Source: Dethiosulfovibrio faecalis (GTDB lineage: Bacteria > Synergistota > Synergistia > Synergistales > Dethiosulfovibrionaceae). From it: DNA of 64,000 nucleotides. The stretch covers positions 1-64,000 of the forward strand of contig NZ_JAKGUE010000003.1 in assembly GCF_021568795.1 (NCBI RefSeq). Direction: 5' to 3'. Of this stretch, positions 49,248 to 53,138 are shown one piece after another; the first letter of the stretch is position 1, and every line of letters starts with the position of its first letter. A program made the position numbers and the translations under genes. Under the pieces are notes generated by a model that saw only the letters and a list, made by a program, of their open reading frames with translations, had not been told where the DNA came from and ran no database searches.

Positions 49248-49301
49248 GCTTTCTCATATGGCACATCTGAAAACTCACGTCCGAGCGTTTTTAGAGATGT
49301 C

Positions 49302-50381
49302 CTATAGCCACTTTTTCCTCCTGAAGTAGGCCACCATTCCGGCTCCGACGGCTATCATAACGATCCATACGACCGGATAGGAAAAACGCCAGTCCAGCTC
49401 GGGCATATACTTGAAGTTCATGCCGTAGACCCCGGCTATGAAGGTAAGGGGGATGAATATGGTGGCTATCACCGTCAGGACCTTCATGACCTCGTTCATC
49501 CTGTTGCTGACGCTGGATAGATATGTGTCGTGCATACCTGTCAGTAGCTCTCGGGAGGCTTCGACCATGTCTATAACCTGGATCGTGTGGTCGTATAGAT
49601 CCCTTAGAAACGCGTCCAGGTCGTTTCCGAAGAAGGACGAGTCCGACTTCTGTAGGTTCCCAACCGCCTCCCTGAGAGGCCAGACCGCCTTTCTGAGGGT
49701 CATGACGTCTCTCTTGAGCTCGTGTATCCTCTGGAGGTCGTCGGGCCTGGGGTCGATCAGCAGCCTGTCGTCCATATCCTCTATGACGTCTCCGATACGC
49801 TCCACCGAAAGGAAATAATGGTCCACCACAGCATCCATAAGGGCGTAGGCCAGATAGTCCGATCCGTTGCCCCTCAACCTTCCCCTGGAGGCCCTCAGCC
49901 TCTCCCTGACCGGCTCGAAAACGTCTCCCTCTTTTTCCTGAAAGGAGAGTACATACCCCTCCCCGAGGATCAGGCTGACGTGCTCGACGTCCACCGAGTT
50001 GGTCTCGTCGTTGTAGTTCATCATCTTCATCACCAGAAGGAGGTAGTCGGGAAAGACCTCCGCCTTGGGCCTCTGGGACGTGTTCATCAGGTCCTCCACC
50101 GTCAGAGGATGAAGGCCGAACCTCTTGCCCAGGGCGTCCATCACCTTCGGATCGTGGATGCCGTCCACGTTGATCCATGCGACCCCTTCCGATCGGGACG
50201 GCCTGTTAACGTCGTCGAGGGCTAGGTCTACCTTCTCGACCAGGTCTCCACGATCGTAACTGATCGAACCTATTCGGACGGCCTCGGACCTGGACTCTCC
50301 GATGAAGACCGGAGTTCCCGGAACGGTTCCCCTCTTGGAGCTCTGACGGGCAGACCACTTTTTTCTCTTTCTTTTATTCAT
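49302..50381 (-). CDS. corA: Magnesium/cobalt transporter CorA
   Basis: A 359-residue CorA-type channel. A large cytoplasmic N-terminal domain is followed by a long helix and two C-terminal membrane helices; the selectivity motif YGMNF is near residue 322. The end is basic (YFRRKKWL). It mediates Mg2+ (or Co2+/Ni2+) uptake as a pentamer in the inner membrane. ATG 50381 has a GGGGG-rich RBS. It stands alone and is divergent from the flavoprotein gene. Confidence 0.93.
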   Translation of the reverse strand: MNKRKRKKWSARQSSKRGTVPGTPVFIGESRSEAVRIGSISYDRGDLVEKVDLALDDVNRPSRSEGVAWINVDGIHDPKVMDALGKRFGLHPLTVEDLMNTSQRPKAEVFPDYLLLVMKMMNYNDETNSVDVEHVSLILGEGYVLSFQEKEGDVFEPVRERLRASRGRLRGNGSDYLAYALMDAVVDHYFLSVERIGDVIEDMDDRLLIDPRPDDLQRIHELKRDVMTLRKAVWPLREAVGNLQKSDSSFFGNDLDAFLRDLYDHTIQVIDMVEASRELLTGMHDTYLSSVSNRMNEVMKVLTVIATIFIPLTFIAGVYGMNFKYMPELDWRFSYPVVWIVMIAVGAGMVAYFRRKKWL

Positions 50382-50451: not shown

Positions 50452-50479
50452 CTCCAGATATTCTGGAAGGAGAGTGGTC

Positions 50480-51826
50480 TTGGTGGAGAGGATCGTTATT
50501 TTAGGAGGAGGCCCGGCTGGCATAACCGCCTCCAAGATGTTGAGGAAGAACAGACCGGATTGGGACGTCACCATGGTGAGGCCCGAGCCCTCCAGCCTGA
50601 TCTATTGCGCCATTCCCTACGTGGTCGAGGGGCTTTTGGAGGCCGACGGGGTGTGCAAGTCGGACGACATAGTCACAGAGACCGGGACCAAGCTGATAAA
50701 GGACAGGGCGACCGAGGTAAATTTCGCCAAAAAGACGGTGAAGATCTCCTCCGGCGACGAACTGCCCTATGACAAACTTCTCATAGCCCTGGGAGCCAGG
50801 CCGGTCATGCCCCCTCTGGAGGGAATAGCCGGAGCGAAAAACACCTTTCCCGTAAAGACCGAGGAGGATCTAAGGGCCATACTGAAGGCCATAACCCCCG
50901 GCTCCCGGAAGGCTCTGGTGATAGGGGCCGGAAACATCGGCATAGAGATGGCCCAGGCCCTCAGAAAGAGGGGGCTGGACACCTATATGGTGGAGATGGC
51001 GAAACACGTCCTTCCCGCCATGATGGACGAAGATATGGTCTCGGAGGTCGAGGCAGGGCTGAGGGATAAGGGAATAGATCTGATCACCGGAGTGGGGGTA
51101 GGTTCCCTCGAGAGAAGAGGCGAGGTCGTATCGAAGGCCGTTTTGTCCGACGGAAGGGAGATCGTTCTCAACGACGAAGGAGAGGACGATATGATCATAG
51201 TCTCCGTAGGGGTAAGGCCCGAGGTGGACATATTGAAGGGAACGGAGATCCCCATAGGCCCTATGGGGATACTGGTCAACGAGAGGATGGAGACCGGAGT
51301 TCCCGACGTATGGGCCGCCGGGGACGTGTGTCAGTATCGGTCCTTCCTGGACGAGGAGATCATCGGAGGCAAGCTGGCGACCAACGCGGTTCCCATGGCC
51401 AAGGTGGCGGCCAGAAACATGATGGGAACGGACTGGACCTACGACGGTTTCGTCAACGGAGCAGCCACCGTAGTCGATCCCCTCAGGATCGGAGGGGTGG
51501 GCTTTTCCGAGGAGACCTGCTTAAAGAAGGGGATGAAGGTGGTTACGGGAAAGGGCAAGACCACCACCAGGTTTCCCATGATGCCCGGAGCCACAGAGGT
51601 GACGGTGAAGTTGATATTCACCGAGGAGGGCAAACTGGTGGGAGGCCAGGTTGTCGGAGGCGAGGCGGTAGCGGAGAGGATCGACACCTTGACCATGGCC
51701 ATAAAGGCCGGTTTCTCCGTGAAGGACCTGATGTCCTTCGACTACTGCTCTCAGCCATGGCAGACTTTCTTTCCAGCCTCCAACGCGATAGTGGCGGCGG
51801 CGGAGGACGGATGGAGCAAGCTTTAA
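50480..51826 (+). CDS. FAD-dependent NAD(P)H oxidoreductase, CoA-disulfide-reductase/NADH-oxidase type
   Basis: A 448-residue flavoprotein. FAD binding is by VILGGGPAGITAS at the N-terminus, NAD(P)H by VIGAGNIGIEMAQALRKRG, and the second FAD site by VWAAGDVC. The single redox cysteine C43 in SSLIYCAIPY matches CoA-disulfide reductase and NADH oxidase/peroxidase. The start is TTG 50480 or GTG 50483, both served by AAGGAGAG; a long upstream extension is rejected. It lacks a rhodanese domain. Activity (CoA-disulfide, polysulfide or O2 reduction) is undetermined. Its stop lies in the end of the MITE-like element. Confidence 0.85.
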   Translation: MVERIVILGGGPAGITASKMLRKNRPDWDVTMVRPEPSSLIYCAIPYVVEGLLEADGVCKSDDIVTETGTKLIKDRATEVNFAKKTVKISSGDELPYDKLLIALGARPVMPPLEGIAGAKNTFPVKTEEDLRAILKAITPGSRKALVIGAGNIGIEMAQALRKRGLDTYMVEMAKHVLPAMMDEDMVSEVEAGLRDKGIDLITGVGVGSLERRGEVVSKAVLSDGREIVLNDEGEDDMIIVSVGVRPEVDILKGTEIPIGPMGILVNERMETGVPDVWAAGDVCQYRSFLDEEIIGGKLATNAVPMAKVAARNMMGTDWTYDGFVNGAATVVDPLRIGGVGFSEETCLKKGMKVVTGKGKTTTRFPMMPGATEVTVKLIFTEEGKLVGGQVVGGEAVAERIDTLTMAIKAGFSVKDLMSFDYCSQPWQTFFPASNAIVAAAEDGWSKL

Positions 51827-52081
51827 GGGCACCTCTAAAAACGCTGATCCTCGTAGAGGTCGTTCCGACGGGGCCCGTTCGAGCCCGTCTTTTCGACCTG
51901 CCGTCGTGTAGTACGAATGGGGCGACAGGAAGTCGCCACAAGCCGAGGGGGCACAGGACGTGCCCTCCGAGGCGGTCCGTACGAAACAGGCAGGTCGAAA
52001 AGACGCTCGGGCGAGACAGGGCGCAGGCGGGACGACCTCTACGAGGAGACTCGGACGTTAGTTTTTAGATATGCCCTTAAA
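51822..52081. mobile_element. MITE-like 260-bp palindromic element
   Basis: Both ends read TTTAAGGGCA inward, continuing with TCTAAAAAC at the same distance. Further in, TCGTAGAGGTCGT and GTCTTTTCGACCTGCC are also inverted, so almost 90 bp on each side are complementary. The centre holds two small hairpins with AGGAA and AGGAC loops. It encodes no protein. It sits between convergent genes whose TAA stops both lie within the TTTAA ends, consistent with insertion at a TTAA target. It could also be a large structured RNA or a double terminator. Confidence 0.65.
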
Positions 52082-53138
52082 GCAAGACCTTGGTGACGTA
52101 GGAACTGGTACTGGCGGCCAGGACTCCTCCGTAGGACAGGTCGAACTCGATCACGTCGCCTATCTTCAGGTCCCTCTCGCCGTCGGTAACGTCCAGTATC
52201 ATGTGGTCGCTGCTGGCCCCGAGGATGTCGGTCTTCTCGTCCCTAGGAGATATGGCGTCGATCCTCATGTCCTGCTGGCCCACCGCGACGATGGCCCTCT
52301 TTCTGAGACCCCGGTCCTCGAAGACCGGCTCGTGGCCGAAGGCGTCCAGTCCCTTTTTACCTATGGGGATCGATGGCTTGGTCTTGAGCTCTATGACCTC
52401 GGCGGCGAAGGTGAAGACATCGCTATGGAGTCCGGGGATAACGGTGCAATCGGCGGTCTCCTTGCCTATTGTCATGGACTCGCCCAGGCGGAGCATGTTG
52501 ATCCTCTCCGGCATGCCACCCGAGAGGAGCATCCTTATGGAGGACGAGTTTCCTCCGGAGACTACGTCGAGATGGATTCCGCATTCGGACTCTATGGAGT
52601 CGGCGATCGAGGCCAGCTGTCCCAGGTTTTCCGGACTGGGAAGCACCGCTCCGTAGCAACTGAGGTTGGTCCCGATTCCCTTCAGGATCAGCCCCGGCAT
52701 GGACGCTATTTCCCGGGCGGTATCCACCGCCCTGTCGGGCCAGACCCCTTCCCGGAGGTCTCCGACGTCCACCATGAGCAGCACCTGGTGTTCCTTTTTC
52801 ATGGCCACCGCGGCCTCCGAAAGGGCCCGGCAGGTGTCCACCTCGGATACGAGGCTCATGTCGGAGAGCTCCACCGTCTCTCGGGCCTGGGAGATCATGG
52901 GAAGCCGCAGGAGTATCTTTGGTATCGGGATATCCCTCAGCTTGACCAGGTTCTCCAGGCGGCTGTCGGCGAGCCAGTCGACTCCCGCCTCGGCCTGTAC
53001 CGAGGCTATCTCCGGCATTCCGCAGTACACCTTGCTGACCGCGGCGACCTTGATGCCCCTATCGTGGCACTCCTTGGCGAGCTTCGAGGTGTTCTCCCTC
53101 AGCTTCTCCCTGTCCACTATAAGCGCGGGATATCTCAT
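52077..53138 (-). CDS. orr: Ornithine racemase (alanine racemase-like fold III)
   Basis: A 353-residue PLP enzyme of the alanine racemase N-terminal family. The PLP lysine is K36 in AAVSKVYCG; VSGGNSSS and the C-terminal HMILD segment are also conserved. In Clostridium sticklandii the homologous gene is the ornithine racemase converting L- to D-ornithine, the substrate of the aminomutase. Its place as last gene of the ora operon makes this the most likely role. It is 18 bp after the glmL-type gene; its stop codon is in the MITE end. Confidence 0.85.
   Translation of the reverse strand: MRYPALIVDREKLRENTSKLAKECHDRGIKVAAVSKVYCGMPEIASVQAEAGVDWLADSRLENLVKLRDIPIPKILLRLPMISQARETVELSDMSLVSEVDTCRALSEAAVAMKKEHQVLLMVDVGDLREGVWPDRAVDTAREIASMPGLILKGIGTNLSCYGAVLPSPENLGQLASIADSIESECGIHLDVVSGGNSSSIRMLLSGGMPERINMLRLGESMTIGKETADCTVIPGLHSDVFTFAAEVIELKTKPSIPIGKKGLDAFGHEPVFEDRGLRKRAIVAVGQQDMRIDAISPRDEKTDILGASSDHMILDVTDGERDLKIGDVIEFDLSYGGVLAASTSSYVTKVLL

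Follow-up and report, generated by a model that had tools for sequence, protein, structure and literature searches.

A mobile element of the MITE type that carries an RNA of the TwoAYGGAY type was found between two convergent genes of Dethiosulfovibrio faecalis. Judged from sequence, this cargo probably acts through binding of CsrA, either by titration of the protein or by marking of mRNAs. The window, i.e., the whole analyzed stretch of DNA, comprises 64,000 nucleotides. The first-pass annotation had noticed a MITE-like element of about 260 bp there, and a real MITE with terminal inverted repeats (TIRs), target-site duplication, multiple copies and empty sites was indeed located at positions 51823-52080. 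The features of the locus are as follows:

50474-51826, + strand: left neighbour, pyridine nucleotide-disulphide oxidoreductase (flavoprotein) gene
51823-51826, no strand: first copy of the target-site duplication, TTAA, whose last three bases (51824-51826) form the stop codon TAA of the flavoprotein gene
51827-52076, + strand: MITE body, 250 bp, near-palindromic; orientation set by the strand of the GGA loops
51827-51842, + strand: left terminal inverted repeat GGGCACCTCTAAAAAC, matching the ends of an IS5-family IS
52061-52076, - strand: right terminal inverted repeat GGGCATATCTAAAAAC
52077-52080, no strand: target-site duplication copy 2, TTAA, same 4-mer as 51823-51826
52077-52079, - strand: stop of orr, TAA inside TTAA copy 2
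52077-53138, - strand: right neighbour orr, PLP-dependent alanine racemase N-terminal family protein

The body is short, has no coding capacity and is bounded by TIRs of 16 bp (GGGCAYCTCTAAAAAC), a terminal motif with a chance expectation of 0 in the 64,000-nt window. The complementarity of both sides described earlier was mapped to three paired arm segments (51820-51842/52061-52083, 51848-51887/52008-52047 and 51886-51902/51989-52005). Folding of the element as RNA yielded -164.6 kcal/mol for the + strand (z = -12.2 versus dinucleotide shuffles) and -151.3 kcal/mol for the - strand (z = -9.7). The element lies in sense orientation 3' of the flavoprotein gene, and its proposed insertion in the stop codons of the two convergent genes holds, with both TAA stops inside the TTAA copies. 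The pre-insertion site would plausibly have been CTTTAAAG. At 49260-49302, between CorA-like and TetR-like genes, two ends of this TIR family are fused into a remnant without a core.

The element is multicopy in its own genome and across Dethiosulfovibrio. In the own genome (G000), ten copies are nearly complete (84-92% identity) and fragments occur in addition, while several relatives carry 20 to 40 or more copies each, with approximately 40 in G004. Matching pieces amounted to 53 in G001 and 45 in G005, numbers in which fragments and both-strand matches are counted. Among 69 copies with both ends, identical flanking 4-mers were found for 26 and 4-mers with one mismatch for 24, compared to 3.5 agreements expected by shuffling. 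The target-site duplication accordingly has a fixed length of 4 bp. Hence, the duplication claimed by the first-pass annotation stands and is TTAA at this locus, but the targets are AT-rich in general and not TTAA-specific. Empty sites were looked for with joined flanks, and a site with a single 4-mer was regarded as clean. Five clean empty sites were detected, three of them in G000 (L073, L094, L092) and two in G005 (L080, L083). At a sixth site, L072, an internal-deletion derivative of approximately 50 bp is present in G000; coreless derivatives of 45-75 bp exist as well. A single-copy sequence that is never missing from its site, named beforehand as the observation speaking against mobility, is therefore not what was found. 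All clean sites are at loci other than that of the window, for which no clean one was observed among the genomes compared. There, G001 shows the same insertion, and G005 is without the element, with a peptidase C69 gene between both genes (L193, 847-2507) and the C-termini of flavoprotein and Orr different by a few residues from those of the window genome. In G004 and G003, too, a copy adjoins the 3' end of orr, but with a different left neighbour. No match was obtained in phages, plasmids or viral contigs. A search with the core pattern matched only a Dethiosulfovibrio MAG in a genome collection from which records close to the window's own genome are possibly absent.

The comparison of the termini with autonomous transposons, suggested from the outset, led to an IS5-family IS with the same ends and a 4-bp duplication. 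Within 151 genomes searched, GGGCAYCTCTAAAAAC was recurrent only in Dethiosulfovibrio; two further genomes had one hit each. In G001 it is part of a 1298-bp IS bounded by GGGCACCTCTAGCAACCCC and GGGCATCTCTAAAAACTCCCC, with the duplications CTTA, TATA, GTAA, ATAT, ATGA, GAGA and GCTT. Its transposase of 348 aa belongs to NCBIfam transpos_IS5_4 (281 bits) and to Pfam DDE_Tnp_1 plus DUF772. G001 contains seven full copies with 98-100% protein identity and G003 a single one. Decayed pieces were found in G006, whereas G000, G002, G004 and G005 lack the IS. This IS is likely the autonomous partner of the MITE. Because of the shared ends and the same duplication length, the MITE would depend for its movement on an IS5-family transposase acting in trans, which recognizes the GGGCAYCTCTAAAAAC ends and generates 4-bp duplications. 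Differences are that the interior of the MITE is unrelated to that of the IS and that the host genome lacks the IS. The near-identity of the seven copies in G001 (example at L235, 243-1540) suggests recent activity of the IS. An IS30-like transposase adjoining one TIR in G012 (L225, 2990-3005) was rejected as partner, as no matching second end was present.

Repeats in hairpin loops like those bound by CsrA and a possible RNA role had also been noted in the first pass. Both are supported by an Rfam match, by GGA loops on one strand, by covariation, by the slow change of the core and by a csrA gene in the host. The features of the RNA are:

51869-52020, + strand: full-length hit (model positions 1-168) to Rfam RF01731, TwoAYGGAY, scoring 50.2 bits against a gathering cut-off of 43
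51921-51937, + strand: hairpin 1, GGCGAC-AGGAA-GUCGCC, loop motif CAGGAAG (51926-51932)
51949-51965, + strand: hairpin 2, GGGCAC-AGGAC-GUGCCC, loop motif CAGGACG (51954-51960)

More than 100 matches to TwoAYGGAY over threshold were obtained in Dethiosulfovibrio. In this RNA, CsrA-binding motifs were found by Gardner and colleagues, who predicted a CsrA-binding sRNA (PMC4333381). The core at 51869-52020 resembles it by two GGA hairpins within an outer stem, spanning the full model. It differs by its residence inside a transposable element with many copies per genome and by loops one base short of the AYGGAY consensus; AYGGAY is not found in both loops, which read AGGAA and AGGAC with GGA retained. 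Both loop motifs are consistent with the CsrB repeat CAGGA(U/A/C)G (PMC7652899). The GGA triplets of the two hairpins are 28 nt apart, within the 10-63 nt between sites that a CsrA dimer can bridge (PMC7652899). In predicted folds, two GGA hairpin loops were present on the sense strand in 81 of 91 copies, and none on the antisense strand in 87 of 91. The RNA is predicted to fold as one long hairpin with two CsrB-like CAGGA(A/C)G loops at a distance of about 28 nt, and one CsrA dimer could bridge both. The sponge RNAs CsrB, CsrC and RsmX/Y/Z share such GGA hairpin loops matching the CsrB repeat (PMC7652899), but the candidate unit described here has two sites and not many and occurs as dispersed mobile copies. 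SELEX ligands of E. coli CsrA have mostly six-nt loops and short stems (PMC7652899), whereas 5-nt loops on GC-rich stems of 6-8 bp were found here.

The hairpin core changes slowly. For 40 copies of G004, substitution from the consensus was 0.3-1.3% in the hairpin core versus 3-30% in arms and ends. We are aware of the fact that the copies are related and that gene conversion or recent amplification could partly explain this conservation. Between orthologous insertions, divergence was 1.2% in the core, 3.0% in the inner arms and 5.5% in the flanks (Fisher core versus flank 3e-6, core versus inner arms 0.04), in a comparison where flanks are largely coding and pairs share some loci. Using an alignment of 30 sequences, 97.4% of cells were paired and both-side changes were observed in 26 of 64 pairs. 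This count was reached by 0 of 500 shuffles and compares with 3-12 pairs in slid-partner controls, although palindromes can self-correct by template switching. One-sided changes in the inner stem comprised 53 distinct G.U versus 32 A.C types (p = 0.03, sense strand), while the outer ends, with 28 G.U versus 26 A.C, showed no clear excess. G006 is the most divergent member; there, hairpin 1 shows an altered stem, a longer loop and changed loop neighbours, and GGA is retained in most copies having hairpin 1 in core orientation. In two G006 loci (L103, L111) hairpin 1 is inverted in place, so that the core strand has ATCCT in the loop.

Core and pairing are also kept at loci without TIRs, namely L009 and L010/L090/L102. 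The former lies three bases after the stop of a DegT-like aminotransferase gene and ahead of what appears to be a terminator of hairpin and U-tract; the latter lies inside an operon and is conserved in three genomes. Orthology of L009 and L088 was considered and rejected on the basis of their flanks. Regarding orientation, the upstream gene is co-directional with the element in a ratio of 19:17 in G004 and of 9:1 in G000, counts that rest on codon-scored gene calls. All these data bear on the possibility of an ordinary IS5-derived MITE, the core of which is kept through effects at the level of DNA or of amplification (cruciform, transposition efficiency, master-copy gene conversion) with idle GGA motifs. 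Long palindromes are typical of MITEs, recent copies have a common master sequence, derivatives lacking the core occur and the orientation in G004 is almost unbiased. Nevertheless, we consider this explanation unlikely, since it does not fit with GGA loops confined to one strand, a strand-asymmetric G.U excess solely in the inner stem, an Rfam match to an RNA family also found outside Dethiosulfovibrio, a core slow to change after insertion and its retention at TIR-less loci.

For an RNA acting through CsrA, the sense strand would have to be transcribed, most likely via read-through from a neighbouring gene. In G004 about every second site would then be read in sense, in G000 9 of 10. Due to the small orientation bias, about half of the G004 copies would be antisense if only read-through counts. 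Sites resembling a promoter or a terminator were not observed around the window copy. The duplication overlaps the stop codon of a neighbour in 24 of 75 copies. This frequent start at a stop codon and the extreme stability of the hairpin would also suit an ERIC/NEMIS-like mobile module of 3'-UTRs, in which the hairpin serves as mRNA stabiliser, RNase III processing site or terminator and CsrA is irrelevant. With no U-tract following the hairpin at the window copy, and with the conservation of GGA loops on one strand left unexplained, a module of this kind appears improbable.

Between species, the core was found inverted relative to the flanks, with breakpoints in the arms. Inverted-core sites are L001/L078, L004 and L098/L082, L007 and L095/L084, L081/L093 and L012/L089; the first of these is the window's own site (L001 in G000 versus L078 in G001). 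Inverted cores at orthologous sites might point to a recombinational switch, where recombination of the arms inverts the core and the decoy is made in one orientation only (phase variation). The inversions were, however, observed between species and not within a culture, their frequency is consistent with passive inverted-repeat recombination and no dedicated recombinase was found, which renders phase variation very improbable.

Knowledge of sponge RNAs of the Csr family comes mostly from Gammaproteobacteria. The host described here differs from these by the possession of FliW, which Gammaproteobacteria lack: in G000, csrA (82 aa) directly follows fliW in a fliW-csrA operon. A csrA gene was present in 7 of 7 Dethiosulfovibrio genomes, all with elements, while seven genomes of two other genera of the family had neither csrA above the cut-off nor elements. 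This co-occurrence represents one phylogenetic contrast and not a statistical correlation. Returning to the favored CsrA-binding cargo, the dispersed copies together would titrate CsrA, or would mark the 3' ends of single mRNAs for CsrA. A more far-reaching scenario, which we put forward tentatively, is that a transposable element captured a CsrA-binding RNA, carried it to tens of sites per genome and built up a dispersed, invertible CsrA-titrating network in bacteria possessing FliW as well. Some copies would have lost their ends and become fixed elements of the host, one in a 3'-UTR and another within an operon.

Regulatory effects of MITEs have been described before, as have sRNAs derived from MITEs and the sponge RNAs of the Csr system. 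QMITEs of Coxiella burnetii were reported to yield sRNAs (PMC10969869). Together with ERIC and NEMIS/Correia they resemble the present element as bacterial MITEs, but neither a CsrA-binding cargo nor CsrA itself is mentioned in PMC10969869. In the literature searched, outside of which most subscription journals fall, no publication describing a CsrA-type RNA on a MITE and nothing on point for CsrA with MITEs or Synergistetes was found. The fusion of a mobile element with a CsrA-type RNA appears to be new. If true, a transposon would disperse the sites to which a global regulator of the RNA-binding kind attaches. According to a 2020 review, joint action of FliW and sRNAs on CsrA is still to be determined in any species (PMC7652899). 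With dozens of candidate RNAs for CsrA binding borne by a mobile element in a fliW-csrA bacterium, this question and the proposed function of TwoAYGGAY become testable in culturable bacteria. Finally, a different RNA matching the TwoAYGGAY core was observed in another Synergistota family, in the two csrA-positive genomes G018 (L232, 1171-1322 and 3151-3322) and G035 (L233). Two copies of it, inverted to each other, lie on either side of a PLP-dependent Cys/Met-metabolism-like gene.
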